Virus record (IMG/VR): IMGVR_UViG_3300042527_000802
Coordinates: 1 to 64,000 of that record
DNA length: 64,000 bases
Strand: one strand, 5' to 3'
From: a virus
The position numbers and the translations under genes are program-made. Positions 9,938 through 48,265 of the stretch are shown one piece after another; positions within the stretch are counted from its first letter, which is position 1, and each line of letters opens with the position of its first letter. The notes beneath the pieces are model-generated. The model searched no databases. It saw only the letters and a program-made list of their open reading frames with translations, and was not told the origin of the DNA.

Positions 9938-12415
9938 ATGTTTATAAAATCAGAAAAATATAGCATATTACAATCTGCCTGCGGCATAGAATTGAAATTT
10001 ACAGAGCTAAGACCTGTAGAAGAAAAACTTGCAGATATAGTATCTATATCAAGATCAAATAGGATAAGTACAGCTCAAATTGTACAATTATCTAAGCCAT
10101 TAAGTTCTGGAGAATCTGTAAATATCAGATCTATTGCATCTGGGATCAACTTAACTAATCCAATAGATAATTCATTTACTGGCGATTATACGATTACAAA
10201 TGTAACATATCCTAGTAATGCTTCATCGACAGCCACTATATCATATTATCAAAATTTATCTGATTTTTTTAGCATTAATATTGCTGGTGATTTATATTCA
10301 ATTCCAAATATAGATCCAGCAGAAAATTATCTTATAGATTTTAATATAGAGTCTATAGTACCAAGTAGTGCTGAAGCAACATTAAGACCAAATAGATATA
10401 TTGTTAGTGGAAGAGAAATATTCACCCCTATAACAATACTAGAAATTAAATCAAGATTCTCTACATCTGCTAAAGTTTTAGTAAGAATGGTATTAAGAGA
10501 TCTTAAAACAAATAAAATTTTAAAGAATGAATATATTGAAGTTGTGATGACAGATGCTGATACTAAACCGTGTGAAATTATTACTCAGCAACCAATAGAT
10601 AATGAGTATTACTATTTAGATATATCTAATAATTGGACATATACTCATGATGGGTACACGTTAGCACAACTAATACCAAATAATAGAAATAATACATCTT
10701 TAAGATTAAACAAAAAAAATAATCAGTTATTACCAAGCCGAGGAAACTCAAATAAAATTAGAGTTATTGTTGATCCTATTAAGTTATCGGAAAAAAAGGT
10801 AACCATAGATCAAATCAGGACAGCTATGGTAAATCAATTCAATACTATAGAAAATTATTATGCTGTAGCTAATTTAGGAAATAAATCTTATGATATTATT
10901 GTTAAAGATATATTTCTACAGCCAGCAGATTTGAATAATATTGTGGTAGCCGTTGTTCCTCCCACTACAGGAATACCCGTTAAGTTTAACGAGGTGGCCA
11001 CCGCAATAAACTATACATCAGATTCTAGTGATATTCCTGGAATAAGTTTATTAAGATGGATAAATAATAATGAAACAGTATATATTGGAGAATTGCATTT
11101 TGATAAAAATGTTTATTTGGATGATACAATTAAAGTACAATATGGTCAATATGGATTATTTGGAAGTATAAAAGATTTTTACTCTGGATTAAGTTATTTA
11201 GAAGCGACTCCAACTCCAACTCCTACTCAAACCCCTACTCAGAGCGTAACTCCTAATCCAACAAGGACTATTACTCCAACTATAAGCATTACTCCTACTA
11301 CAACTCCAACGATTAGTATAACACCAAGCATAACGACAAGCGTTACTCCAAGTGTTACTCTAACAAAAACTCCGACAACAACACCAACTATTAGTGTTAC
11401 TCCAAGCATAACAGCCACTGTAACACAAACTCCTAGCACAACACCAACCATTAGTATTAGTCCAACGATAAATGTTAGCTCAACACCGACAGTTACTCCT
11501 ACTATTAGTATTACTCCAAGTGTAACAATTACTACAACTCCAACAGTAACACCAACTATCAGTATTACTCCAAGCATAACGCCTACTACAACTCAAACAG
11601 TGACCCCAACTATTAGTTTAACCTCTACTATAACTCCAACTGTTACTGTTACACCAAGTATTACTACTAGTATAACGCCAACAATAACTACTAGCATAAC
11701 TCCAACACCAACATCAGAGCCAATAACAATACAAAGAATTGACGATACAGATGCTGTATACTCCTGTTCGACGGAAAATTCTGTAAATGTAACTATACCA
11801 TCCACTGTTCAGTCTGGTGATTTAATATTAGCAATAGTTATGAGACGATCATCATTAACTAATACTGCAAGTTTTTCACTAGTATCAGAAATTCAAAATC
11901 CAAGTACTGTAAATACAGATCAATGGACATCTATATATAGAAAAACAGCAACAAGCGGTGATGCATCATCCACAATAACATTCCAACAAAGTTCAAACGG
12001 TAGACTAGGAGTCTCATTGATAGTTTTAAGAAGTAGTAATGGCATATATAATGTTGAGTCATCGGCTACCAATTCAGACACTCAAATAAATAATTTGCCA
12101 ACAGTAACTAGTGGTGGAAGCAATAGAGTGGCAATAGCAGCAATATCTAATATTTATAGCTATACAGTTACCAGTGGCTCTGCATGTGATATTATTAATT
12201 ACATTAATGCTCCAGCAGGATATACTCCAACTACAATAGAGTCAATGTGTGCATATGAAGATTCTGGAACTACTCCAAACTGCCAGATATTACGAATAGG
12301 AGCAGCATATAAGTATATAAATAATGCTGGTTCAGTAAATACTGGTGAAACATTTACATCAAATATTGGAACATATAATATTGGTCAAATAGCACTAATA
12401 ATATCACCGTATTGA
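9938..12415 (+). CDS. Fibre protein with mucin-like Thr/Pro linker
   Basis: Residues 1 to about 420 form a non-repetitive beta-rich region that I do not recognise. Residues about 423-595 are a Thr/Pro/Ile/Val/Ser linker made of T-P-T-I-S-I-T-P-S type repeats. Residues about 600-825 form a C-terminal domain (SGDLILAIVMRRSS, then IGAAYKYI) resembling a jelly-roll-like module seen in many phage and bacterial surface proteins. An ATG at 9938 follows an AAAGGA site, which is preferred over the TTG at 9935. It is probably a fibre with a stalk and a terminal binding domain. The linker is a candidate substrate for the phage's own glycosyltransferases. Confidence 0.65.
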   Translation: MFIKSEKYSILQSACGIELKFTELRPVEEKLADIVSISRSNRISTAQIVQLSKPLSSGESVNIRSIASGINLTNPIDNSFTGDYTITNVTYPSNASSTATISYYQNLSDFFSINIAGDLYSIPNIDPAENYLIDFNIESIVPSSAEATLRPNRYIVSGREIFTPITILEIKSRFSTSAKVLVRMVLRDLKTNKILKNEYIEVVMTDADTKPCEIITQQPIDNEYYYLDISNNWTYTHDGYTLAQLIPNNRNNTSLRLNKKNNQLLPSRGNSNKIRVIVDPIKLSEKKVTIDQIRTAMVNQFNTIENYYAVANLGNKSYDIIVKDIFLQPADLNNIVVAVVPPTTGIPVKFNEVATAINYTSDSSDIPGISLLRWINNNETVYIGELHFDKNVYLDDTIKVQYGQYGLFGSIKDFYSGLSYLEATPTPTPTQTPTQSVTPNPTRTITPTISITPTTTPTISITPSITTSVTPSVTLTKTPTTTPTISVTPSITATVTQTPSTTPTISISPTINVSSTPTVTPTISITPSVTITTTPTVTPTISITPSITPTTTQTVTPTISLTSTITPTVTVTPSITTSITPTITTSITPTPTSEPITIQRIDDTDAVYSCSTENSVNVTIPSTVQSGDLILAIVMRRSSLTNTASFSLVSEIQNPSTVNTDQWTSIYRKTATSGDASSTITFQQSSNGRLGVSLIVLRSSNGIYNVESSATNSDTQINNLPTVTSGGSNRVAIAAISNIYSYTVTSGSACDIINYINAPAGYTPTTIESMCAYEDSGTTPNCQILRIGAAYKYINNAGSVNTGETFTSNIGTYNIGQIALIISPY
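11204..11719 (+). repeat. Thr/Pro-rich linker tract, copy 1
   Basis: This coding low-complexity tract is built from short units translated as T-P-T, I-S-I-T-P-S and T-V-T-P-T. At DNA level it is a degenerate repeat of act-cca-act-ата-like codons in one frame only; on the opposite strand it yields a spurious Val/Gly-rich frame. Similar tracts occur at 50040-50695, 52855-53255, 55950-56185 and 57027-57320. Confidence 0.9.
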
Positions 12416-21295: not shown

Positions 21296-21871
21296 ATGAA
21301 TACAAAATTTTCAAATAAAAAGAAAACTCCATTTATTTATTATAGCAATAATGATATTTTTGACATTGCTAGAGAAAGAGTAACTGGAGGCAATAATGGA
21401 TGCACGGTTTTTATTCCTCATGTGTGCAATAACATAGATTTATTTGGAGCCGGATTTGCAGCCCAGGTGGCTGATAAATATCCATCCGTTAAGGCAGATT
21501 ATCATATGTTAGGCAAAACGTTCTTAAAAAATAATTTAGGATATGCACAAGTTATAAAAGTATTTGAAGATCCAAAACATAGACATAAATTATGTTTTGT
21601 TAATATGATAGCTCAAAATGGAGTAAAAGGATTTAATAACCCTAGACCACTAAACTATCTAGCACTTGTAAAATCAATGAATAATATGTCAAACTATATT
21701 CAAAATCATACAGGTTTTGGTAATGGTTCAGAAAAAGTGGAAATACATTGTCCCAAGTTTGGTAGTGGCCTTGCTGGTGGTAATTGGAACTTTATAGAGC
21801 AACTTATAGAAGATGTTTGGTCAAAATATTTCGTAACAGCATATCACTACAATCCAAGGCCAAAAACATGA
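21296..21871 (+). CDS. Macro-domain protein (ADP-ribose-1''-phosphate type)
   Basis: The order of motifs fits a macro domain of the Appr-1''-p processing type: IPHVCNNIDLFGAGFAAQV forms the ligand loop, LGYAQVI and CFVNMIAQNG follow, and HCPKFGSGLAGGNW is the second phosphate loop. Such proteins bind or hydrolyse ADP-ribose derivatives. In a phage this could reverse ADP-ribosylation or remove signalling nucleotides used by host defence, or help RNA repair. It begins 5 bases after the upstream stop and shares ATGA with the next gene. Confidence 0.8.
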   Translation: MNTKFSNKKKTPFIYYSNNDIFDIARERVTGGNNGCTVFIPHVCNNIDLFGAGFAAQVADKYPSVKADYHMLGKTFLKNNLGYAQVIKVFEDPKHRHKLCFVNMIAQNGVKGFNNPRPLNYLALVKSMNNMSNYIQNHTGFGNGSEKVEIHCPKFGSGLAGGNWNFIEQLIEDVWSKYFVTAYHYNPRPKT

Positions 21872-22236
21872 ATACTATTGTCAATAAACTGTGGGGATAT
21901 GAAATCTGGATAGAGAATAATTCAGAATATTGTGGTAAACATTTACATGTAATACCAAATCGTAAATGCTCTGTTCATTATCATAAAAACAAAAAAGAAA
22001 CATTCTATATTATTAACGGTGAATTGATATTAGAATATTCAACACATCTTGATGAACAGTCATGGATAAATATGAGTGGTATAAAAACTATTCTACTCGA
22101 AAAAGGAGATAGTTTTACAATAGAAAGAAATATTGCTCATAGATTTTATACTAGTCTATCATATCCCTGTGATTTTATAGAAGTTTCTACGTATCATGAT
22201 GATAATGATTCATATAGAATCATAGTTAGCTCATGA
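21868..22236 (+). CDS. Cupin-fold sugar-phosphate isomerase-like protein
   Basis: The start at 21868 (MNTIVNKLWGYEIW) is chosen because the longer frame overlaps the macro gene deeply; ATGA overlap with the previous stop gives coupling. The sequence resembles the cupin part of mannose-6-phosphate isomerase type II: W-G-x-E-x-W, HYHKNKKETFYIINGEL with metal-binding His/Glu, and a second block ERNIAHRFY. It may isomerise or bind a sugar phosphate feeding the heptose genes that follow. Length is 122 residues. Confidence 0.7.
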   Translation: MNTIVNKLWGYEIWIENNSEYCGKHLHVIPNRKCSVHYHKNKKETFYIINGELILEYSTHLDEQSWINMSGIKTILLEKGDSFTIERNIAHRFYTSLSYPCDFIEVSTYHDDNDSYRIIVSS

Positions 22237-22529
22237 AATATATAGTTGATATAGACAACACTATCTGTGAAACAATAGAATCAGATTATAAAAATAGTAA
22301 ACCAATAAATTCACACATTGATAAAATTAATAGATTATATCAACAAGGAAATTACATCACGTACTGGACTGCTAGAGGTTCAAACAGCGGTATAGATTGG
22401 TCATCTTTTACTGTGGATCAACTCGCCAAATGGGGATGTTTATATCATGAAATTAAGTTTAATAAACCATCATACGATTTATGGATTGATGACAAATCAA
22501 TTAATATAGGATTTTTTACTAATGAGTAA
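22233..22529 (+). CDS. Small HAD-type phosphatase
   Basis: The first residues contain the HAD motif D-x-D-x-T (VDIDNTI) and later motif T (YWTARG, for phosphate binding), Lys in EIKFNKPSYD and acidic DLWIDDK. At 98 residues it is a minimal, cap-less HAD. Its place between a cupin isomerase and a heptose-type kinase suggests a phosphatase in nucleotide-sugar synthesis, possibly the GmhB-like step of the ADP-heptose pathway. Substrate is inferred from context only. Confidence 0.7.
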   Translation: MKYIVDIDNTICETIESDYKNSKPINSHIDKINRLYQQGNYITYWTARGSNSGIDWSSFTVDQLAKWGCLYHEIKFNKPSYDLWIDDKSINIGFFTNE

Positions 22530-23289
22530 TATAGTTGTCATTGGAGAATCATGTATAGATGAATATGTGTATGGAACGTGTGATAGGGTTTGTCCTGAAG
22601 CAGCGGCCTTGTGTTTTCGTCATTCTAATTACAAAACCGTTAACTCTGGAATGGCCGGGAATACTTATGAGAATCTCAAAGCTTTAAATGACAATGATCA
22701 GCATAAAATTGACCTAATAACTTGTAGATCTACTATTATTAAAAGACGTTTCATTGATAAAAAATACAATTCTATTATTTTTCGCGAAGATATAAATGAT
22801 AAATCAGATAAAATTAATCTAACAAACTATAACTCTCTAATAGACTACGATTATATAGTAATATCAGATTATAATAAAGGTTTTTTATCTATAGATGATA
22901 TCAAAAAAATATCTCACATAAAAAGAAAAGACTGTTTGATATTTATTGATACTAAAAAATCTTTAAAAGATTTAGCACAGTATGTTGATTTTATTAAGAT
23001 TAACTCTCCTGAATTTGAACAAAATGCTCAATATATTGATAAAATTATTAAATATTCAAATTTAATTGTAACTAAAGGGGAAAAGGGCGCCACTTTTTAT
23101 TCTAAGAATGAAATAAAAGATTTCGCTACAGAAAAGGTTATCTTAAGAGATGTTTGCGGTGCCGGAGATACATTTCTTGCTGGTTTAGTAATAAAATATT
23201 CAGAAACTAAAGATATTAATGAATCTATCAAATATGCTAATGCTTGCGCATGTAAAGTGGTAGCAAAATTTGGAGTGGTCACAGTATGA
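22522..23289 (+). CDS. PfkB-family kinase, HldE N-domain-like (heptose-7-phosphate kinase)
   Basis: The opening VVIGESCIDEYVYGTCDRVCPEAA corresponds in layout to the start of the heptose kinase domain of HldE, where D-x-Y-x-Y-G...R...P-E-A is typical. The ATP/catalytic block reads VCGAGDTFLAGL with catalytic Asp216. At 255 residues it is shorter than the usual domain (about 310), mainly in the N-terminal half, and the G-G-A-A-N loop is replaced by SGMAGN. It overlaps the next gene, the matching nucleotidyltransferase, by 4 bases. Confidence 0.8.
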   Translation: MSNIVVIGESCIDEYVYGTCDRVCPEAAALCFRHSNYKTVNSGMAGNTYENLKALNDNDQHKIDLITCRSTIIKRRFIDKKYNSIIFREDINDKSDKINLTNYNSLIDYDYIVISDYNKGFLSIDDIKKISHIKRKDCLIFIDTKKSLKDLAQYVDFIKINSPEFEQNAQYIDKIIKYSNLIVTKGEKGATFYSKNEIKDFATEKVILRDVCGAGDTFLAGLVIKYSETKDINESIKYANACACKVVAKFGVVTV

Positions 23290-23672
23290 AAATCATTTGG
23301 ACTAATGGATGCTTTGATATTCTTCATGTTGGACATATAGAGCTATTTAAATATGCTAAATCTCTTGGAGACCAACTGATTGTTGGTATTGACAGCGATG
23401 CTAGAGTAAAAGAACTAAAGGGCGAAAGTAGACCAATCAATAATCAATTTCGCAGGAAAATTTTACTAGAAAGCATCAAATATATAGATAAAGTAGTAAT
23501 ATTCAACAGTGAAGATGATCTTAGATCCAATATTAAAAACTTATCAGTTGATCTCATTGTGGTTGGAGATGACTATAAGAACAAGAGGGTCATCGGTATC
23601 GAGCATGCCAAAGTGATGTTTTTCCCAAAAATTCCAAATCTATCTTCATCTGCTATTATAAATGGCAAATAA
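23286..23672 (+). CDS. Cytidylyltransferase-fold enzyme, HldE C-domain-like
   Basis: The nucleotide-transfer motif is complete: TNGCFDILHVGH carries HxGH at residues 14-17, and GIDSDARVKELKG and RPINNQFRR follow as in heptose-1-phosphate adenylyltransferases (HldC or HldE C-domain). The C-terminal part has VVGDDYKNKRVIG and a phosphate-binding SSS. At 128 residues it has the normal size of the stand-alone enzyme. It would make ADP- (or CDP-) heptose from heptose-1-phosphate. It shares 11 bases with the following epimerase gene. Confidence 0.85.
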   Translation: MKIIWTNGCFDILHVGHIELFKYAKSLGDQLIVGIDSDARVKELKGESRPINNQFRRKILLESIKYIDKVVIFNSEDDLRSNIKNLSVDLIVVGDDYKNKRVIGIEHAKVMFFPKIPNLSSSAIINGK

Positions 23673-24543
23673 TATTTTAATTACCGGATCATCAGGATTC
23701 ATAGGCTCTTGTCTTACTAGAAGTCTTAGATCATCTAATAGTATTTATACTTGCGATACTTCAAACACAAATTTTGATCATAAGTTTTTAAATATCGAAG
23801 ATATAGATAAATATACCTTGAGTATGTTTGATACTATTGTTCATCTGGGAGCTATATCGGAAACTAATTCATCAAATTTACAAGATATATTAAAACAAAA
23901 TATAACTTTTACTCTTAATTTAATATCAAACTCACCACCATCCTGCAAGATTATTTATGCATCGTCTGCATCTGTGTATGGTAAATGCGAATCTTCTGTT
24001 TCTGAGGGCGATGCCACAAATGGAGATAGTGCATATTCAAAATCCAAAATTGCTATAGATAATATTATAAAAACATTTTGCCAAGACAGACCAATCATTG
24101 GGCTACGATTTTTTAATGTTAGCTCATTCAATAGTGAAAAGCATAAAAAGCAACCCAGTCCCACTTTCAGATTCCTACAACAGCTTAAAGAGAATCAAGA
24201 AATAAAACTATTCCACGGATCTGATCAAATTTTTAGAGATTTTATCTATATTGATGATGTAATTGATATTATTAAATTTTTTATTAAATATGATATTAAT
24301 CAATCAGAAATCTTCAATGTTGGTTCTGGTCAATCAGCATCTTTTGAGAATATTGCTGATGCGTTGATTAGTAAATTAGGATTTGGATCTAAAACCTTCA
24401 TAGACAGACCCAATAACTTAACAAATAATTATCAAACCTTTACTTTAGCAAATATAGATAAACTTAAATCTTTTGGATATCATACATATATACCATCAAT
24501 ACTAGAGCATATAGAAAATTATGAGCCAGAAATCAGAAACTGA
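23662..24543 (+). CDS. HldD-like ADP-heptose 6-epimerase (SDR)
   Basis: This is an extended short-chain dehydrogenase: GSSGFIGS binds NAD(P) at residues 9-16 and Y-S-K-S-K supplies the YxxxK catalytic pair. Beyond general epimerases, several segments follow HldD: VHLGAISETN, LRFFNVSSFNSEKH, KLFHGSDQIFRDFIYIDDV and a YQTFTLANIDKLKSFGY tail. Length is 293 residues, near the HldD norm of about 310. Together with the adjacent kinase and adenylyltransferase this gives the last three steps to ADP-L-glycero-D-manno-heptose. A general sugar 4-epimerase is the alternative. Confidence 0.8.
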   Translation: MANNILITGSSGFIGSCLTRSLRSSNSIYTCDTSNTNFDHKFLNIEDIDKYTLSMFDTIVHLGAISETNSSNLQDILKQNITFTLNLISNSPPSCKIIYASSASVYGKCESSVSEGDATNGDSAYSKSKIAIDNIIKTFCQDRPIIGLRFFNVSSFNSEKHKKQPSPTFRFLQQLKENQEIKLFHGSDQIFRDFIYIDDVIDIIKFFIKYDINQSEIFNVGSGQSASFENIADALISKLGFGSKTFIDRPNNLTNNYQTFTLANIDKLKSFGYHTYIPSILEHIENYEPEIRN

Positions 24544-24928
24544 TCTACAGTTTGACACTCTAAAGAGTATCTTAGAAAACGATAATAATCCTAAACTATT
24601 ATTTTCGGTGCCAGAGAGCGCTGGAGATATATTTTTATCAACAAGTCTTTTACATTCGCTTAAAAATGCATATCCAGACTATCATATATATTTTGCATGT
24701 AATAAACAATTTTTTCCTATTCTAAAAAAGAATCCACTAATTCATAGAGTTATAGAATTTATGCCAATTATGGAAAATCAAGTTATTATGGAAGGAACAG
24801 CGAGCTGGAAAGGTTTTTTTGATATTAGTATTATGGCTACTGTTTTAACTCAAAGATATATTAATTATTTAAACAATGGAAAAACTAAAATTATGTTTGA
24901 CTTAAAGGATAATATATGCATATCTTAG
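24521..24928 (+). CDS. GT9-like glycosyltransferase, N-terminal half (split gene)
   Basis: The product has the N-terminal Rossmann half of an ADP-heptose transferase (GT-B): FSVPESAGDIFLSTSLLHSLKNAYP and a KNPLIHRVIEF segment typical of the family. It stops at 24928, after only 135 residues. The C-terminal half continues in another frame from 24916. The two may form one heterodimeric enzyme, or the gene may be frameshifted. It follows the heptose synthesis genes and overlaps the epimerase gene by 23 bases. Confidence 0.7.
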   Translation: MSQKSETDLQFDTLKSILENDNNPKLLFSVPESAGDIFLSTSLLHSLKNAYPDYHIYFACNKQFFPILKKNPLIHRVIEFMPIMENQVIMEGTASWKGFFDISIMATVLTQRYINYLNNGKTKIMFDLKDNICIS

Positions 24929-25479
24929 AAACCTATGCTCTAGTGTCAGGAGCTAAAATAAGTAAATGTTTTATACATGAAGATCCTATAGATATTCCAT
25001 CATCAAAATATATAACTTTTCATCCATATAGTCCAAAAGGAAATAGTAAACAATATGATCACTGGACCACGATATTAGACCTGTTAAAGAATACTAAATC
25101 TTTTGATTATGAGATAATACAGATAGGTGAAGAAAATGATACTAAATATAATGTTAATAATGAATATTTAGGACAAACTACATTTAATTCCTTAGCAACC
25201 TTAATCAAAAAATCATCATTACATTTAGGATTTGATAGCTTTCCAGTACATTTAGCGTCGTACTATAATATAAAAATTGTTGCTTTGTATTCATATTATG
25301 CTTCTACATGTGGGCCATACTTTTCAGACCAAAATAAAGTTAGATTACTAGAGCCTAGTTTTGATAAGATAAAACCAACATTTAATCATAATGATCCTTA
25401 TCGACTCATCAATAACATAGATCCTATTTTAGTATATCACTCAGCGTTAGATTTATTAGAAATAAAATATGAAAATTAA
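24916..25479 (+). CDS. GT9-like glycosyltransferase, C-terminal half (split gene)
   Basis: This 187-residue product matches the C-terminal, donor-binding half of a GT9 enzyme: ITFHPYSPKGNSKQYDHW, EIIQIGEENDT, then LGFDSFPVHLASYYN with the conserved D-S-x-x-x-H-L-A. It has its own start with a well-placed AAAGGA site 6 bases upstream, and overlaps the N-terminal half by 13 bases in a -1 frame. The proper ribosome site argues for a naturally split, co-translated enzyme over a simple sequencing error. Confidence 0.75.
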   Translation: MHILETYALVSGAKISKCFIHEDPIDIPSSKYITFHPYSPKGNSKQYDHWTTILDLLKNTKSFDYEIIQIGEENDTKYNVNNEYLGQTTFNSLATLIKKSSLHLGFDSFPVHLASYYNIKIVALYSYYASTCGPYFSDQNKVRLLEPSFDKIKPTFNHNDPYRLINNIDPILVYHSALDLLEIKYEN

Positions 25480-26395
25480 TATTAGAATGGAGGGTGGTTT
25501 AGGAGATCACCTACTAGCAAATAGATTTGTTCCAGCCATTCTTGACAAATATCCAGAAGCACAGATAAAGATATTTTCGGACACAGAGAACAATCCAAGA
25601 AGCCTAGACCTTTTGCTAAATACATTTCCGTCTTTTTATAATAGAGGTGGAGAAGTTATTAAAAGTAGAAAAAATAAAGAATTTACTATAACATCACAAT
25701 TTGGTCCAGAAAATTATCCAGCTAGTATTGATAATCATACTGACGAAACTAAGCAAATAATGATAAATGAATGTGATAAATTTTATGATTTACACATAGA
25801 TAGTTTGAAGTGGCTAGATCATGACTATGATTGGTTCAGATACTATTATTTTTTTCCTAAACCACAACAAAAATATAATAAAATATATGAATCTTCTTAT
25901 GTAATGACGCATTTATATTCTAGACCTAATTCTCCCTATAATTTAGATAAACAATATTCTATTAATTTATTAAAACAATTATCGCAAGTCCTTAAAGTAG
26001 TTGTTGTTATTGAAGAACAATATAAAGATTATTATCAAGAACTGTTTGATAACAATAATATTATTATTAACACAGCATCCAGTATTGATGAAATTTTTTC
26101 AATAGCATCACATTGTTCATGCTTTTTTGGCATAGATAGTGGTATTAGATACATACCTTATCATTTTGGAAAACCTACTTTTGTTTTTTCAAAATATTGT
26201 TCATCATATGGAAATGTTGCATACTCTCATCTTGTCAGATGGCTCATTTATAAACAGTATGTACTGCCAATGCATATAGATATTGACATTATATCTAAAA
26301 TAGTTTACAATATAAATAGTAATCAGGCTTACTCACTATTTCCTGAAATACCAGATAGTATAGATCAGTATATAGTTAGGAGAAAATATGAATAA
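25469..26395 (+). CDS. GT9-like (GT-B) glycosyltransferase
   Basis: The N-terminus RMEGGLGDHLLANRFVPAIL matches the Gly-rich acceptor-side loop of GT9 enzymes, and GIDSGIRYIPYHFGKPTFVF gives the C-terminal donor site. Central segments (VVVVIEEQYKDYYQEL) are the second Rossmann domain. Length is 308 residues. It overlaps both neighbours by 8-11 bases, which fits a continuous operon. A heptose or other nucleotide-sugar donor made upstream is likely. Confidence 0.65.
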   Translation: MKINIRMEGGLGDHLLANRFVPAILDKYPEAQIKIFSDTENNPRSLDLLLNTFPSFYNRGGEVIKSRKNKEFTITSQFGPENYPASIDNHTDETKQIMINECDKFYDLHIDSLKWLDHDYDWFRYYYFFPKPQQKYNKIYESSYVMTHLYSRPNSPYNLDKQYSINLLKQLSQVLKVVVVIEEQYKDYYQELFDNNNIIINTASSIDEIFSIASHCSCFFGIDSGIRYIPYHFGKPTFVFSKYCSSYGNVAYSHLVRWLIYKQYVLPMHIDIDIISKIVYNINSNQAYSLFPEIPDSIDQYIVRRKYE

Positions 26396-27759: not shown

Positions 27760-28725
27760 ATGAGAATTGGCTTAATAGGTTATGGATACTGGGGTCCAAA
27801 TATAGCAAAAAATCTACATAAGCTTAATGTTGATTTTACCGTAATAGTAGATAGCGACCATAGTAAACTATCTAAATTATCATATCCAAAAACTATATTA
27901 TTAAATAATATTAATGATGCATTAAATCATGCCGACGCATTTATTATTGCAACACCAATAGAAACACATTATAGTATAGCTAAATATTTATTAGAAAACA
28001 ATAAACATGTCCTGATACAAAAGCCTATGGCCGACTCTTCAGATAAATGCAAAGAATTAATTGATTTATCATATAAAAATAATCTTACATTAATGGTTGC
28101 CCACACCTTCTTGTTTTCTCCACCAATAAATAAGATAAAAGAAGATATAAATAATAATAATTATGGCGATTTAAATTATATTATATCAACTAGAATTAAT
28201 TTAGGGTTATTTCAACGTCATCATAATGTGATCTGGGATCTAGCTCCTCATGATTTTAGCATTATTAAATATCTATATAATGAAAAGCCGATAGCAATAT
28301 CTGCTGTTGGTAAAAAACACACAGAGTGCCAACACATAGACTGCGCCAGTATTTCTATTTTATATAATTCTAATTTTATGGCTACAATTAATGTTAATTG
28401 GCTATCACCAATAAAGGTCAGAAACATGATAATTGGTGGTCAAGATAAAACAGTATTATATGATGATTGCTCATTAGATAAAATAAAAATTTATGATTCT
28501 GGCGTAGAATTTAATAATGATGTCTTCACATATAGAAAAGGAGATATCAATATTCCAAGATTAGATGAAAAGGAACCAATCAATTATGAGTGTATAGAAT
28601 TCATTAAGTCTATAGAGAAAAACAAGCGCTCTGTTTCAGATGGTGAATTTGGCTTAGAAGTTGTTAAAATGATCGAAGCAGCAAATAAATCAATATTAAA
28701 TAATAGCGCAGTTATACCAATATGA
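27760..28725 (+). CDS. Gfo/Idh/MocA oxidoreductase, WbpB/WlbA-like
   Basis: The NAD-binding loop IGLIGYGYWGPNIAKNL opens the protein, and LIQKPMADSS carries the conserved E/Q-K-P motif with Lys for catalysis. IWDLAPHDFSI is a further family motif typical of UDP-sugar oxidases such as WbpB. Length is 321 residues. The next two genes are a hexapeptide acetyltransferase and a DegT aminotransferase, which is the WbpB-WbpD-WbpE set used for 3-oxo and then 3-acetamido sugars. The exact sugar is inferred. Confidence 0.8.
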   Translation: MRIGLIGYGYWGPNIAKNLHKLNVDFTVIVDSDHSKLSKLSYPKTILLNNINDALNHADAFIIATPIETHYSIAKYLLENNKHVLIQKPMADSSDKCKELIDLSYKNNLTLMVAHTFLFSPPINKIKEDINNNNYGDLNYIISTRINLGLFQRHHNVIWDLAPHDFSIIKYLYNEKPIAISAVGKKHTECQHIDCASISILYNSNFMATINVNWLSPIKVRNMIIGGQDKTVLYDDCSLDKIKIYDSGVEFNNDVFTYRKGDINIPRLDEKEPINYECIEFIKSIEKNKRSVSDGEFGLEVVKMIEAANKSILNNSAVIPI

Positions 28726-29174
28726 ATAATGTAAGACTTGGCCAAAATACAGTCATACATCCTATTACAAATATATACGGATGTATAATTTCTGATAATT
28801 GTAGAGTTGGTCCATTTGTTGAAATACAGAAAAATGTAATGATAGGTAAAAATTGCAAAATACAATCTCATTCATTTATTTGTGAGGGAGTTACAATAGA
28901 AGATAATGTTTTTATTGGTCATGGCGTTATTTTTTGTAATGATAGACTACCAAGGGCCACAAATATAGATGGTTCTCTTAAGAAAGAAAATGAATGGACA
29001 TTAGAGCCAGTGTTGATTAAAAAAGGAGCCTCAATAGGAAGTAATGCAACCATACTCTGTGGGATTACAATAGGATATAACAGTGTCATCGGCGCTGGTA
29101 GCGTAGTAACCAAAAATATTCCGGATAATCAAATATGGGCGGGCAATCCTGCTAAATATATTAAAAATATATGA
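28722..29174 (+). CDS. Hexapeptide-repeat N-acetyltransferase, WbpD/WlbB-like
   Basis: The protein is a left-handed beta-helix of isoleucine-patch hexapeptides (VIHPITNIYGCIISDNCRVG, then IGYNSVIGAGSVVTKNIPDN) ending with AGNPAKYI. The loop IFCNDRLPRATNIDG is characteristic of WbpD/WlbB, the acetyl-CoA-dependent enzymes that N-acetylate a UDP-3-amino sugar. Length is 150 residues. It overlaps both neighbours by 4 bases, between the oxidoreductase and aminotransferase that would act just before it. Confidence 0.85.
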   Translation: MNNVRLGQNTVIHPITNIYGCIISDNCRVGPFVEIQKNVMIGKNCKIQSHSFICEGVTIEDNVFIGHGVIFCNDRLPRATNIDGSLKKENEWTLEPVLIKKGASIGSNATILCGITIGYNSVIGAGSVVTKNIPDNQIWAGNPAKYIKNI

Positions 29175-30259
29175 AAGTTCCTTTTTTTAATTTATATAAT
29201 ATAAACAGCCTAATTAAAAAGGATGTTTTAGAAGCAGTATCCAAAATTATCGACGATAGTAGTTTTGTAGATGGTAACTTTGTTAAAAAATTTGAAGAAG
29301 AATTTGCAGAGTTTTGTGGTGCAAAATACTGTATTGCTGTTAATAATGGCACAAGTGCTCTTCATTTAGCTACAAAAGTTAGTTTCAGATCATCTATAAA
29401 AAATGCAGCAACTCCACCAAACTCATTTTTTGCCACATCTGAAAGTTTAGAGTATTCTGGTTTTAATCCGTTTTTTGTTGATGTTGATGAAAATTTTAAT
29501 ATTAATATCGCAGACCTATACTCTTTACAAAATTATTATGGAAATATATTACCAGTTAGTTTATATGGAAATCCATGTAATTTATCAGCAATAAAAGATA
29601 TATCAGATACTTACAATAAGGGTTTTGTTCATGATGCGTGTCAGGCCCACGGAGCATATCACAAGAATAATCCCATATGCGACTACGCTGAGTTGACATG
29701 CTTCAGCTTTTATCCATCAAAAAATTTAGGAACTTTTGGTGAAGGAGGAGCAATAGTAACAAATAATAAATATTATTATGAAACTATAATGCAACTTAAA
29801 AATCATGGACAACAAATTAGATATAAACATAATAATATAGGATATAACTATAGGTTAAATGAAATACAAGCTGCTGTACTTTCGATAAAACTTAAATATC
29901 TTGACGAATGGACTGATGAAAGAATTAATATAGCAAAAAGATATGATAATAATCTAAAATCATCTAAAGTTAAAGTCTTAAAAATTAATTCAGATGATAA
30001 ATGCGTATATCATTTATATCCTATATTTACAGAATATAAACAAAAATTATTAGATTTATTTGATAAAAATAATATTGGTTACGGATTTCACTATCCAATA
30101 CCAATATATGACCAATTACCATATTCATCATTAAATCTCGATCACGCTAAATTTAAATATACTGAAATAAGTAAAAATCAACAAATCAGTCTACCAATAT
30201 ATATAGGAATGTCTAATCAAGAAATAGACTATGTTTGCGAGATAATAAATCAATTATGA
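29171..30259 (+). CDS. DegT/DnrJ/EryC1 PLP aminotransferase, WbpE/WlbC-like
   Basis: The sugar aminotransferase motifs are complete: FEEEFAEFCGAKYCIAVNNGTSALHL, VHDACQAHGA, and the PLP-lysine in FYPSKNLGTFGEGGAIVTN, then LKNHGQ and the dimer loop GYNYRLNEIQAA. At 362 residues it is full length. With the two genes before it, it would convert a keto UDP-sugar to the 3-amino sugar and pass it to the acetyltransferase. The donor and stereochemistry cannot be read from sequence. Confidence 0.9.
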   Translation: MKVPFFNLYNINSLIKKDVLEAVSKIIDDSSFVDGNFVKKFEEEFAEFCGAKYCIAVNNGTSALHLATKVSFRSSIKNAATPPNSFFATSESLEYSGFNPFFVDVDENFNINIADLYSLQNYYGNILPVSLYGNPCNLSAIKDISDTYNKGFVHDACQAHGAYHKNNPICDYAELTCFSFYPSKNLGTFGEGGAIVTNNKYYYETIMQLKNHGQQIRYKHNNIGYNYRLNEIQAAVLSIKLKYLDEWTDERINIAKRYDNNLKSSKVKVLKINSDDKCVYHLYPIFTEYKQKLLDLFDKNNIGYGFHYPIPIYDQLPYSSLNLDHAKFKYTEISKNQQISLPIYIGMSNQEIDYVCEIINQL

Positions 30260-33966: not shown

Positions 33967-34306
33967 TTTATTGGTAGATGAGGCATATGCTTTTGATTAT
34001 CTCGCAATATTAGAAGTAAAAAAGAACCTATATTGTTCTGAACAAAAAGAAAACACACATAATGAATGCAAGCAATTTTTGTTAAATCAACTCAAAAACT
34101 TTAAAGAAATAATTATATCTAAAGAATATAAAGACTTATACGATATTAATTTATTCACATTCAATCTTATAGATAAACTTAGAGAAGGCAAAGAAATTAC
34201 AGCCCTTGAGATTGATAATGCTAATATGGAAAGATTTTACAAAAAAAAAGCATTACAAGATAAATTTTTTACTAATCCACTGACAGAAGAAAAAATTACA
34301 AAATAA
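33959..34306 (+). CDS. Small helical protein of a glycan-cluster type, unknown
   Basis: The 115-residue protein is helical and charged. Its start (LLVDEAYAFDYLAILEVKK) resembles small proteins found next to sugar genes, whose N-terminus reads like D-x-x-x-x-L-x-I-L-E-x-K (DUF6165-type), but I cannot confirm the family. It overlaps both neighbours (8 and 1 bases). Confidence 0.5.
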   Translation: MINLLVDEAYAFDYLAILEVKKNLYCSEQKENTHNECKQFLLNQLKNFKEIIISKEYKDLYDINLFTFNLIDKLREGKEITALEIDNANMERFYKKKALQDKFFTNPLTEEKITK

Positions 34307-35478
34307 TGAATAATTTTTGGCCACTAAATATTAATAATTTTACTGTTGATGATAGAAAATCTATTTCTAATTTTATTGAAGATACAAAAAATAGATGGAC
34401 TCAAGACATACAAGTAAAAATTTTTGAACAAAAGTTTTCAGAGTTTATTGGGTGTAAATATGCAATTTTTGTTTCTAGTGGATCAACGGCCAATACAATG
34501 CTCGCTCAGTATTTGAGAGATACCACAAAAAAAAATAGAAATAAAATTATATTACCATCAACAACTTGGCAAACATCTTGTTCCCCATGGATTAGAGAAG
34601 GCTTTCAACCGATATTTATTGATATTTCATTAGATGATTTTTGTATAGACATTGAAAAGTTAGAAAAAATGCTACAGCAAGATGCATCTGACATAGCATG
34701 TGTTTTTCCAACATCTTTAATAGGATTTTCTCCTAATATTGAACATATAAAAAATATTACAGACAAATATAATGTTAAATTAATGTTTGATAATTGTGAA
34801 AATACACTAGGGTCATATGATCAAAAAAACTTATCCTCATATGTGACAAGTACAACGTCTACATATTTTGGACATCAAATACAATCAGTAGAAGGAGGTT
34901 TTATATTTACTGATTCTGTAGACGAGTATGAGTATTTTTTGATGCTTCGTAATCATGGAATGACTAGAGGTTTAACAGCATACGGTTTAGATGCTACTAA
35001 ATATCAAAATAATGACGTTGATTCATTTTTTGACTTTTATTGTTTAGGAAATAACTATAGAAATACAGATATTAATGCATTCATAGGACAATTAGATTTA
35101 AATAGAGCTAACTATTATAAAACAAAAAGAATTGAATTATATAGTGTCTATTATGCAAATCTAGACAGAAACAGGTACTATCTGCCAAATATTAACCGTT
35201 CTCTTGCAGAAGATGTGCCATTTTGTTTGCCAATTATATCTTTAGACAGATCTAATAAAAATAAAGCTATAGAAATATGTAGAAACTTATCTATAGAATA
35301 TAGACCAATAATATCAGGTTTTCTGGGGCGTCAAACGTGCTATAGATCATTTTTTAATAATGATACGGAATATAAAAACTCCATATTCTTACACGATCAT
35401 GGATTTTATGTTGGTCTACATCCTCATATAGAACCAAATGATATACAATTATTGTGTGATAAGCTAAATTCTGCATGA
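34306..35478 (+). CDS. DegT-fold PLP enzyme lacking the catalytic lysine (ColD/RfbH-like)
   Basis: The sequence is a DegT/DnrJ-type enzyme (FEQKFSEFIGCKYAIFVSSGSTAN, LMFDNCENTLGS, LRNHGMTRG). At the place of the PLP-lysine it reads YFGHQIQSVEGG, whereas the paralogue at 29171 has S-K-N-L. In ColD and RfbH, which dehydrate nucleotide sugars at C3, a histidine takes that place. So a C3-dehydratase or 3-deoxy function is likely; I do not think it is a normal aminotransferase. Length is 390 residues. It is the last gene of the long sugar operon. Confidence 0.75.
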   Translation: MNNFWPLNINNFTVDDRKSISNFIEDTKNRWTQDIQVKIFEQKFSEFIGCKYAIFVSSGSTANTMLAQYLRDTTKKNRNKIILPSTTWQTSCSPWIREGFQPIFIDISLDDFCIDIEKLEKMLQQDASDIACVFPTSLIGFSPNIEHIKNITDKYNVKLMFDNCENTLGSYDQKNLSSYVTSTTSTYFGHQIQSVEGGFIFTDSVDEYEYFLMLRNHGMTRGLTAYGLDATKYQNNDVDSFFDFYCLGNNYRNTDINAFIGQLDLNRANYYKTKRIELYSVYYANLDRNRYYLPNINRSLAEDVPFCLPIISLDRSNKNKAIEICRNLSIEYRPIISGFLGRQTCYRSFFNNDTEYKNSIFLHDHGFYVGLHPHIEPNDIQLLCDKLNSA

Positions 35479-36189: not shown

Positions 36190-36393
36190 ATGCCAAAATA
36201 TTATGTGAAATCTGGACAGATAAAATTTGTTATTGACTGCACCGATCACAAATGCGCTATTTTTGCAGCATTAACTCATTATAAGGGGAAGGGTCTTGTA
36301 ACAGGTCCAAAAATTTGCGTTAGCGAACAAGGATTTGAAAGTTTCAAAAAATGGAAATGCTACGATACAGATAAGTTTTTAAAGGATATTTAA
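36190..36393 (+). CDS. Small conserved-type protein between nucleotide genes
   Basis: The start at 36190 (MPKYYVKSGQIKFVIDC) is preferred to 36100, which would overlap the upstream gene by 83 bases. The 67-residue protein has a tidy beta pattern (KFVIDCTDHKCAIFAAL, then KICVSEQGF). I have seen similar small proteins in phages but know of no function. Its stop and the next start overlap at A36393. Confidence 0.6.
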   Translation: MPKYYVKSGQIKFVIDCTDHKCAIFAALTHYKGKGLVTGPKICVSEQGFESFKKWKCYDTDKFLKDI

Positions 36394-37511
36394 TGCAAAA
36401 AATTATTAATGAAATAAAATTGGATTTTGATGATGTTCTTATTCGTCCAAAAAGATCAACACTAAATAGTCGTTCAGAAGTTTGTATTGAAAAAGAATTT
36501 AAATTTAAATATTCTCCAAGAAAATTATCTGTTGTTCCTATTATGGTGGCTAATATGGATACAGTAGGAACCCTTGCTATGGCCAAAACATTATGCCAAG
36601 CAGGGTCCATAGTTTGTTTACATAAACACTATATCACAACAGATATAATTAATTTCTATACTAATGAACCAAATTCAATTACAGAAAAAGCATTCTACTC
36701 TGTAGGAACATCTGAAAAAGATTTAGAGAAGCTCACTCATGTAACAGAAGCTCTGTATACTAAAGGTAAAAAATCACCAAATATTTGTCTTGATGTAGCA
36801 AATGGCTATACTGAATATTTTGTTAAAATAGCTCATAAAATACGTAAACTATTTCCAGAATCAATTTTAATGGCCGGAAATGTTGTCACTCCAGAAATGA
36901 CAGAAGAACTCATTATTCATGGAGAAGTTGATATAGTCAAAGTTGGTATAGGTTCTGGTAGTGTATGTACCACACGTTTAAAAACTGGCGTTGGATATCC
37001 TCAATTGAGTGCTGTGATGGAATGCTCTGACGCTGCTCATGGTCTTGGTGGACATATTTGTTCAGATGGTGGTTGTAAAGTAGTTGGAGACGTTTGTAAG
37101 GCATTTGGGGCAAATGCTGATTTTGTTATGTTAGGCAGTATGTTTGCTGGTACTGATGAGTGTGAAGGAGAATGGAAATATGAATACTTAACAAGTATGG
37201 GATTTTGGCAACCTTTAAATCCAGAACATCAATTTGAATGTCAAAAAAGAAAAGTGTCACTCCAATATTATGGGATGAGCAGTAAAAATGCTATGGATAA
37301 ACACCATAATGGAGTAGCAAAATACAGAACAGCAGAAGGCAAATGTGTTACAGTTCCATATAAGGGTAAAGCTGAAGAAATATTACAAGATATTTACGGC
37401 GGCATACGAAGTGCCTGTACATATATTGGAGCAAATAAAATAAAAGATTTCGGTAAAAAAACCACGTTTATACAGGTTAATAATACTCATAATAGATTGT
37501 ATGAAAAATGA
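36393..37511 (+). CDS. GMP reductase-like IMPDH/GMPR enzyme
   Basis: The opening LDFDDVLIRPKRST, ANMDTVG, and the active-site loop GIGSGSVCTTRLKTGVGYPQLS with Cys near residue 192 place it in the IMPDH/GMPR barrel family; the C-T-T-R-L-K-T-G-V-G-Y-P-Q-L form, with the GGIRSACTYIGA end, points to GMP reductase. No CBS domain is present. Length, 372 residues, fits GuaC. It would convert GMP to IMP with NADPH and ammonia release, redirecting purines. One conserved P of G-P-G-S is replaced by S. Confidence 0.85.
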   Translation: MQKIINEIKLDFDDVLIRPKRSTLNSRSEVCIEKEFKFKYSPRKLSVVPIMVANMDTVGTLAMAKTLCQAGSIVCLHKHYITTDIINFYTNEPNSITEKAFYSVGTSEKDLEKLTHVTEALYTKGKKSPNICLDVANGYTEYFVKIAHKIRKLFPESILMAGNVVTPEMTEELIIHGEVDIVKVGIGSGSVCTTRLKTGVGYPQLSAVMECSDAAHGLGGHICSDGGCKVVGDVCKAFGANADFVMLGSMFAGTDECEGEWKYEYLTSMGFWQPLNPEHQFECQKRKVSLQYYGMSSKNAMDKHHNGVAKYRTAEGKCVTVPYKGKAEEILQDIYGGIRSACTYIGANKIKDFGKKTTFIQVNNTHNRLYEK

Positions 37512-45859: not shown

Positions 45860-48265
45860 ATGACTCTGATTATTAGTTCTATTGATTGTTTAGGAGTATC
45901 TGGTTCTAGTGCTAGCCTACTAATTAATACTCCTGAAATCTACCCTAATACCATCATTCAGGCTGCTCAATATGACTCTGGTAGTGGCATTATTGGCTCA
46001 TGGAGCGGAGTGGCATCCCTATCGTCTACTGCACAAACAATATCTATAAATACAAATGAATTAACTCGTTATTTAAAGTTCAGACTATATGATCAGTCTT
46101 GTAGTGGAATATTTAGTAATACTGTTAATTTTAATCAATATGCTAACTGGAATGGTAGTGAATCATTAAGTCCATCTGGAAATGTTACTACTGTAGGTAG
46201 TAATGGACCACCAAGTTTTTATAATACATACGATCAAAATGGACAAGTATATGAGTGGAACGACTTAGACGCTACTGAAAATATCTACAAAGGATTGCGA
46301 GGTGGTAGTTATGCAAGTATTAACATTGACTTACAAGCAGCCACCAGGCCAATGCTACCAGAAGCTTTATATGAAGGAGCAGAAGTAGGATTTAGAGTAG
46401 CATCAAACACTAATCCATCTGGATACAGTAACTTTGTATCTGTTGGAGATTCTAATAATACTGCAGACGATACTGGCTATGGTGCTGTATCTAGTGATTT
46501 TATGATTAGTGAACACTTAACAACAAATTGTGGATACGTTTATTTTTTAAATTGCGTTGCTCAAGATAACGATTCATATGGACTATATAACGAATCAATG
46601 AATACAGATTTAAGAGGAGGAATAAATAAAACTGAAACATATGTGCAGATAGCAGACGATCTGTATCAAACAGTTAGACAATATTCTTGTAAAACAAATA
46701 TGTGCGACAAACCTGTCAATTATGTAAGCTGGTTTGATGCTGCAAGATACTGCAATTGGCTTCATAATGGCAGACCATCTGGTTCATCTAATAACAGCAC
46801 TGAAAATGGAGCATATACATTAAATGGTACAACGACAGGTCCAGCACCAGCTAAAAATGTATCTGGAAATTACTATCTACCAACAGAAAATCAATGGTAT
46901 AAAGCCGCTTATTATAAAGGAGGAGGAACAGATGCCGGATATTGGACTTATGCTACACGAAGTAACTCAACTCCATTCTCTGTGCTTGCAGATGCAATAG
47001 GAAACGGACCATCTGGCACAGGAATGTACTCATGTTCTAGTGAAACAACTCCAGTATTAATTGGTTGTGGGCTAACGACATGGGAGCCTACAGGTTGTAT
47101 AGAATTACCAGAAGGTAATTACTGTATTTATGATGATGATAAATTACCAGATCCTCCACCATCAGCAACAGGAACATATTATGTAAGTAGTAAAATATTA
47201 TTAGATTTTGATGTCAATAAATCAATAAATCATGCACCAGAAGACTCAGTTCCATATTATTGGAGTGGAGTACATTTAGAGCTAGATTATTCTTCTGGAA
47301 ATGACTGGATCGTTTCATCTGCTACAGGTATTCCTACTGGAATTACTTTTAGTGGCAACTATACTCCATTTGCTTACAGTGGACTGCTTGGTTTAGTAAT
47401 GACACTAACAACATTTGAGTATGACGGTACTGTAAAACAAATATTTAATATAGATAATAATTTAGAAAGTCCTTATGGACTTGATCTATCTATAGAAATA
47501 CCTCTAAGATATCGATCTTTCTATAATGACTATACTATTTCTGAAGGATATACTCTTCCAGTATTTAGTGATACTGATAATGATCAATATCTTTTAGGTC
47601 TTACTTCTGGAGTTTGTTATTACGATCCATCTGTTACTTTTCCATCAGGTTCTTATCCTTATAATGTTGGCAGTATTAGTGTAACAATGGTAAATTCTTG
47701 TAGATCACCAGGTCAATCTCCTTGCGTTAGTCCTCCAGGTCCAGCATGCCCAACGTTTACAGTATTGCCTCCTGGATTAGATATAATAGATGTTAATAAT
47801 CAAGGAAGATATGGAAGACCAATTGATATAGACGTAAATTGTGATGGCACAATACGCCCAGTTGATTCTGATTTTACACATTTAAGTCCATCGTATTATA
47901 AATTTTATTTTTCATCAGCTGTAGGAGGCGCTGTTCCTGTTATTGATGATAAATTTCATGATACTACATGGTTAGATCAAAAAATAGTACCAATTCATTC
48001 AGAACCTACGCCAGCAGCTTTAAGAGATTGGGTGTGTGACCATTTACGCTTTGTCTCGCTTACAGACTATTCAGATTATGTTGCAGATAGTGGTAATGAG
48101 GCAAGTTATCATGGATTTATTTGTTTATCAAACAACCCAGGTGTTGCATTATCTGGATGTTTTGCTCTTAAAAATTCTTGGCCATATAACGACTTATATT
48201 GGGAGCAAGGTAGATGCTCAGGATTACCGCCTGGTGAAATTCCAGTTAATCTTGTTCCATGCTAA
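45860..48265 (+). CDS. Giant fibre protein with permuted FGE-like domain
   Basis: Residues about 91-383 are a circularly permuted FGE/C-type-lectin domain: NVTTVGSNGPPSFYNTYDQN, GQVYEW, RGGSY and GFRVAS come first, then FMISEHLTTNCGYVYFLN, NYVSWFDAARYCNWLHNG and ENQWYKAAYYKG. The rest (384-801) is a beta-rich region that shares a module (I-P-L-R-Y-R-S-F-Y-N-D-Y and A-L-R-D-W) with the protein at 61320. No linker is present here. An AAAAGGAAA site precedes the ATG. Confidence 0.7.
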   Translation: MTLIISSIDCLGVSGSSASLLINTPEIYPNTIIQAAQYDSGSGIIGSWSGVASLSSTAQTISINTNELTRYLKFRLYDQSCSGIFSNTVNFNQYANWNGSESLSPSGNVTTVGSNGPPSFYNTYDQNGQVYEWNDLDATENIYKGLRGGSYASINIDLQAATRPMLPEALYEGAEVGFRVASNTNPSGYSNFVSVGDSNNTADDTGYGAVSSDFMISEHLTTNCGYVYFLNCVAQDNDSYGLYNESMNTDLRGGINKTETYVQIADDLYQTVRQYSCKTNMCDKPVNYVSWFDAARYCNWLHNGRPSGSSNNSTENGAYTLNGTTTGPAPAKNVSGNYYLPTENQWYKAAYYKGGGTDAGYWTYATRSNSTPFSVLADAIGNGPSGTGMYSCSSETTPVLIGCGLTTWEPTGCIELPEGNYCIYDDDKLPDPPPSATGTYYVSSKILLDFDVNKSINHAPEDSVPYYWSGVHLELDYSSGNDWIVSSATGIPTGITFSGNYTPFAYSGLLGLVMTLTTFEYDGTVKQIFNIDNNLESPYGLDLSIEIPLRYRSFYNDYTISEGYTLPVFSDTDNDQYLLGLTSGVCYYDPSVTFPSGSYPYNVGSISVTMVNSCRSPGQSPCVSPPGPACPTFTVLPPGLDIIDVNNQGRYGRPIDIDVNCDGTIRPVDSDFTHLSPSYYKFYFSSAVGGAVPVIDDKFHDTTWLDQKIVPIHSEPTPAALRDWVCDHLRFVSLTDYSDYVADSGNEASYHGFICLSNNPGVALSGCFALKNSWPYNDLYWEQGRCSGLPPGEIPVNLVPC
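46131..47010 (+). other. Circularly permuted FGE/C-type-lectin-like domain, copy B
   Basis: The GNVTTVG...YEW...RGGSY...GFRVAS block (46131-46410) precedes the FVSVGDSNNTADDTGYG...KAAYYKG block (46430-46930). Cysteines for copper are absent from the catalytic positions. Confidence 0.75.

Follow-up and report, generated by a model that had tools for sequence, protein, structure and literature searches.

The described systems closest to the genes reported here are the bacterial ADP-heptose pathway (GmhA, HldE, GmhB and HldD), the arabinose modules of phages (RB69, and HY126 with its enzyme AfhF) and the cyanophage cassette T4-GC 304-308 (P-SSM2, S-SM2, S-CAM1 and others). Phage genes for heptose or lipopolysaccharide (LPS) have also been mentioned elsewhere (PMC7378029, PMC7029224). 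We analyzed a 64,000-nt stretch, hereafter the window, of the 117,480-base virus record IMGVR_UViG_3300042527_000802, in which five overlapping genes in the same direction span positions 21868-24543 and encode a cupin, a HAD phosphatase, a PfkB kinase, a cytidylyltransferase-fold enzyme and an SDR epimerase. Judging from the sequence, we are quite confident that this row is best explained as a nucleotide-heptose cassette in which the cupin replaces GmhA.

The kinase, nucleotidyltransferase and epimerase are homologous to those of the bacterial ADP-heptose pathway, and the genes likewise look like a single operon, since the overlaps between the open reading frames (ORFs) from 21868 to 26395 are short. 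The window differs from the bacterial pathway in having a cupin rather than an SIS-type GmhA, a small HAD protein that is not GmhB, HldE as two proteins, and scores below the equivalog level. The phage arabinose modules have a homologous HAD protein and follow the same scheme, in which an isomerase, a C1 kinase, a distal phosphatase and a nucleotidyltransferase act, but they concern a pentose, an HldD-type enzyme is not known there, and the isomerase of RB69 is SIS-type (PMC6024577). The cyanophage cassette contains the same five families as the window, and these occur together in Prochlorococcus phage P-SSM2, S-SM2, S-CAM1, S-SSM7 and P-TIM68. Its proteins are 29-54% identical to those of the window, although the gene order is different and the epimerase is often on the opposite strand. 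Because the same families recur jointly in Kyanoviridae phages and in many IMG/VR contigs, the gene row is far beyond chance.

An earlier reading of the window from its letters and ORFs, the sequence-only reading, had proposed a phage nucleotide-heptose pathway at 22233-26395, with a HAD phosphatase, an HldE-type kinase, an HldE-type nucleotidyltransferase and an HldD-like epimerase in succession. We confirmed these consecutive ORFs at their coordinates and the row is real, but its start was misplaced, the functional unit beginning with the cupin at 21868. A heptose pathway is still the best reading, with HldE and HldD the best matches, at scores below cut-off, and the earlier interpretation is partly supported. 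The cassette was already known from cyanophages, where it is poorly annotated, and the novelty appears to lie in the cupin as the answer to the missing GmhA. No paper linking a cupin with phosphoheptose isomerase or GmhA was found in the literature searched, which mostly excluded subscription papers and so is not proof of novelty.

Drawing on the protein families and their active-site residues and on how the genes are ordered, distributed and fused, we predict every reaction, and the acceptor, of the following route, all of whose genes lie on the + strand. The metal-dependent cupin (21868-22236, 122 amino acids) would convert sedoheptulose-7-phosphate to D-glycero-D-manno-heptose-7-phosphate in place of the unrelated SIS enzyme GmhA. 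The HldA-like kinase (22522-23289) would then form the 1,7-bisphosphate, from which the small HAD phosphatase (22233-22529, 98 amino acids) would strip the 7-phosphate. An HldC-like heptose-1-phosphate nucleotidyltransferase (23286-23672) would attach the nucleotide, giving ADP- or CDP-heptose, and the HldD-like enzyme (23662-24543) would epimerise C6. Finally, a split GT9 transferase (24521-24928 and 24916-25479) may attach the heptose to part of the virion or to a surface glycan.

We regard the cupin as a probable sedoheptulose-7-phosphate isomerase that is not orthologous to GmhA. It passed the gathering cut-off of Pfam PF07385 (Lyx_isomer; 29.6 bits against 20.8) and that of Cupin_2, and did not reach that of the NCBIfam equivalog NF051472 (19.5 against 350). 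The best solved relatives of its profile were D-lyxose and D-lyxose/D-mannose isomerases, with L-ribose isomerases a close second; with a larger profile the D-lyxose/D-mannose isomerases were still near the top, amid other cupins. The many cupins matched by the structural model (predicted local distance difference test, pLDDT, 97) include D-lyxose isomerases and phosphomannose isomerases of the cupin type, so the fold by itself is not decisive for function. Each of the eight residues by which the Thermofilum D-lyxose isomerase contacts sugar or metal (K, H, H, K, E, H, E and D; PMC8378251) has a counterpart in the window cupin (K24, H37, H39, K42, E44, H91, E105 and D112). Across 64 homologues and nine domains from Patescibacteria, seven of the eight were invariant and the eighth was mostly D or E; cupins at a greater distance in these data had Gln in place of H37 or Trp in place of K24. 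Since some other fused cupins retain this signature, it marks sugar isomerases, not heptose specifically. We observed it in cupins within ~520-residue proteins of other families (L188 15223-16800, L228 1432-2991 and L229 1390-2973), which come from Patescibacteria and a deltaproteobacterial metagenome-assembled genome (MAG).

The D-lyxose/D-mannose cupin isomerases (7NZO, 2Y0O and 3KMH) share with the proposed enzyme the fold, metal ligands, sugar contacts and C2 (manno) product stereochemistry. They take free sugars, however, whereas the phage cupin is smaller and genetically tied to heptose-7-phosphate kinases. The conversions of fructose to mannose and of sedoheptulose-7-phosphate to D-glycero-D-manno-heptose-7-phosphate set the same C2 centre, so the stereochemistry is compatible with an isomerase role for the cupin. 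PHROGs and RefSeq carry other labels, "cysteine dioxygenase" for the cupin (phrog_7851) and "phosphoheptose isomerase" for the HAD protein (phrog_1238). That these are correct is suggested by the labels only, and we give the idea almost no credence. Cysteine dioxygenases bind iron through three His and no Glu, while the cupin metal site has an invariant Glu44, plus K24, K42 and E105, and so departs from the three-His pattern; the HAD protein has a DxD phosphatase motif and the fold of HAD phosphatases, unlike an SIS domain. Both labels look wrong.

We then considered where the cupin occurs. It was present on 35 of 50,697 phage records, and all 35 carried a heptose-7-phosphate kinase, although these records are related and hence not independent. 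The kinase was of the HldA type in 31, and the remaining four coincided exactly with the set of cupin records that encode an HddA kinase; Bellamy has its cupin flanked by HddA (7e-83) and an HddC-like transferase. The cupin therefore accompanies both the ADP branch (HldA/HldC) and the GDP branch (HddA/HddC), which share only the isomerase and the phosphatase. Among 80 cupin loci in IMG/VR, 64 had HldA or HddA, and 8 of the remaining 16 ended at the cupin. In Synechococcus phage SynMITS9220M01 we observed two heptose-type modules, one of cupin, HddA and HddC and the other of a second GHMP kinase, a weak SIS gene and a HAD gene.

A profile for SIS_2 (GmhA, PF13580), run against the window's own record, 50 related phage records and 19 genomes, matched neither the 117-kb record nor any of the 50 phage records. 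No GmhB, SIS gene or second cassette was found in the remainder of the record (64-117 kb). Conversely, Cr30 and four unverified faecal contigs, phage records in which HddA occurs alongside GmhA, showed no cupin. The sequence-only reading had also failed to recognise a GmhA, which holds for the whole record, and had raised the possibility of the cupin substituting at some other step; a replacement is what we favor, but the evidence points to the first, GmhA, reaction.

Cellular genomes bear on the same step. In two samples of Patescibacteria, bacteria with very small genomes (287 and 384 genomes sampled), 31 genomes had a strong HldA. Ten of these had a strong cupin without a strong GmhA, 17 showed the reverse, none had both and four had neither. 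The chance of zero overlap was 2.3e-5, or 2.8e-4 when the three genomes that prompted the look were left out, values that are indicative only because the genomes are related and possibly incomplete. A weak SIS match was also obtained in G702, one of the cupin genomes. Most genomes with GmhA have it directly adjoining HldA, and in G186 the two are fused. The cupin likewise adjoins HldA in G072 and G061, is fused after HldA in L183, L176, L180, L213, L223 and L224 and before it in L211 and L212, and lies on another contig in G054 and G410. In L183 and L189, the operon comprises HldA, HldD and a fused HldC-GmhB, with HldD over the curated cut-off in both and GmhB and HldA over theirs in L189; SIS_2 was not found in either genome. 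Weaker Patescibacteria cupins (L214-L219) were left uncounted as members of the family, having Gln at H37 and no strong HldA found in their genomes. Genome records labelled Euryarchaeota, Planctomycetaceae and the like that carry the full cassette were excluded as cellular evidence; they are probably phage contigs binned into MAGs.

These distributions also bear on whether a host GmhA could supply heptose-7-phosphate and leave the cupin to another job, such as nucleotide-sugar modification or the supply of mannose-6-phosphate. The first step could indeed come from host enzymes, and the fold matches include phosphomannose isomerases of the cupin type. We nevertheless regard this as quite improbable, given that the ADP and GDP routes which the cupin accompanies have only the isomerase and phosphatase in common, that heptose is reportedly missing from cyanobacterial LPS (PMC4390846), and that in Patescibacteria the cupin excludes GmhA and holds its position beside HldA, which argues against a role other than that of GmhA. 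Returning to the cupin as the replacement for GmhA, we think it likely that sedoheptulose-7-phosphate isomerases have a second class, metal-dependent and of cupin fold, to which it belongs. This class would feed both ADP- and GDP-heptose routes, would be spread by marine phages and employed by Patescibacteria, in which the protein is often fused to HldA, and would have been mislabelled as cysteine dioxygenase.

The HAD protein raised the question of whether the sugar is a heptose at all. Its residues D6, D8, R48, K78 and D87 were invariant across 45 homologues. We rejected it as a GmhB orthologue, as it did not match the GmhB profiles (TIGR00213 and related) and its fold was nearest to AfhF, so any GmhB-like role would not be one of GmhB descent. 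The nearest solved relative was AfhF of phage HY126 (9iqw), a D-arabinose-1,5-bisphosphate phosphatase with 36% identity, and GmhB was far behind. This supports the HAD protein as a sugar-1,n-bisphosphate phosphatase, and it also raises the possibility that the cassette makes an activated pentose, such as NDP-arabinose (NDP, nucleoside diphosphate) for decoration of DNA or glycan. The cupin would then convert ribulose-5-phosphate to D-arabinose-5-phosphate, the kinase would form the 1,5-bisphosphate, the HAD protein would act like AfhF, and the last enzyme would be an NDP-arabinose transferase. Mosigvirus arabinose modules contain a predicted isomerase, kinase and NTP-transferase (PMC13390438), and many of the 379 phage records that carry the HAD family are of this kind; a literature search for the HY126 enzymes found no paper.

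We consider a pentose product unlikely in view of the other enzymes. Besides the SIS-type isomerase of the RB69 module, the kinase and transferase matched HldE domains far above ribokinase or other families, an HldD-like epimerase works on C6, which a pentose does not have, and the bacterial counterparts are operons with HldA, GmhB and HldD at curated level. The best NCBIfam match of the kinase was TIGR02198 rfaE_dom_I (2e-34, 118.9 bits, equivalog cut-off 345), that of the nucleotidyltransferase TIGR02199 rfaE_dom_II (2e-33, 115.6 bits, cut-off 181.5) and that of the epimerase TIGR02197 heptose_epim (3e-57, 194.1 bits, cut-off 274.6). The top PDB relatives were HldA (4e84) for the kinase and HldD (1eq2) for the epimerase, and the nucleotidyltransferase profile had cytidylyltransferases as its PDB relatives. 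Alignment to 1eq2 showed that the window epimerase retains positions Ser116, Tyr140, Lys144 and Lys178 of E. coli HldD, which we take to be catalytic, with Tyr140 and Lys178 as the two catalytic bases.

Several observations weigh against a heptose cassette with a cupin isomerase. The kinase, nucleotidyltransferase and epimerase of the window all score under the curated equivalog cut-offs, and the nearest solved relative of the HAD protein uses a pentose bisphosphate. Eight of the 80 IMG/VR cupin loci have space for a kinase and none is there. Of 80 viral loci seeded with the kinase, 39 have no cupin within reach, and 25 of these lack any cassette partner; some of the cupin-less loci may be other sugar kinases. 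SynMITS9220M01 and L152 hold the cupin together with a weak SIS gene, which adjoins a second GHMP kinase. The Patescibacteria genomes are neither independent nor certain to be complete.

Downstream of the epimerase, two ORFs (24521-24928 and 24916-25479) correspond to the N- and C-terminal parts of the NCBIfam heptosyltransferase profiles. Both halves matched these profiles weakly, below cut-off, and the second alone exceeded the cut-off of PF01075 (2e-6). A contig from another phage, L012, shows the same split at 9943-10939 with ~54% identity. An assembly frameshift was therefore rejected as the cause of the split, and because the split is found in two phages that are only ~54% identical there, a GT9 enzyme of two polypeptides seems natural. 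The next ORF (25469-26395, 308 amino acids) matched no Pfam or NCBIfam family, GT9 included. Its homologue adjoins the split GT9 in L012, and it is possibly a glycosyltransferase. What had been described as two GT9-type transferases is thus one GT9 over two ORFs plus an unmatched third.

The cassette is situated within an island of glycan genes at ~14-38 kb, with a tape-measure-like tail protein to the left and a head maturation protease to the right. Given this position between tail and head genes, decoration of a virion part and remodelling of the host surface are both plausible. A second sugar cassette (27760-30259 and 34306-35478) encodes a UDP-GlcNAc 3-dehydrogenase-like protein, a hexapeptide acyltransferase and two PseC/DegT-like aminotransferases, a composition that suggests a 3-amino sugar. 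At 36393-37511 the phage encodes a protein containing an IMP dehydrogenase/GMP reductase domain (E 2e-67), and at 45860-48265 an 801-amino-acid protein with an FGE-sulfatase (formylglycine-generating-like) domain.

If the proposal is true, the missing first step of heptose synthesis would be filled in dozens of sequenced phages and several Patescibacteria, and two misleading labels would be corrected. The HAD family that bears the label "phosphoheptose isomerase" occurs on several hundred phage records, and a gene under the label "phosphoheptose isomerase [gmhA]" has served as a marine viral marker (PMC9238414). That cyanobacterial LPS is reportedly free of heptose (PMC4390846) would explain why cyanophages carry the whole route. 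In hosts with heptose-free LPS, phages could draw on a sugar phosphate from central metabolism to make heptose, and what these phages decorate with it would therefore become testable.

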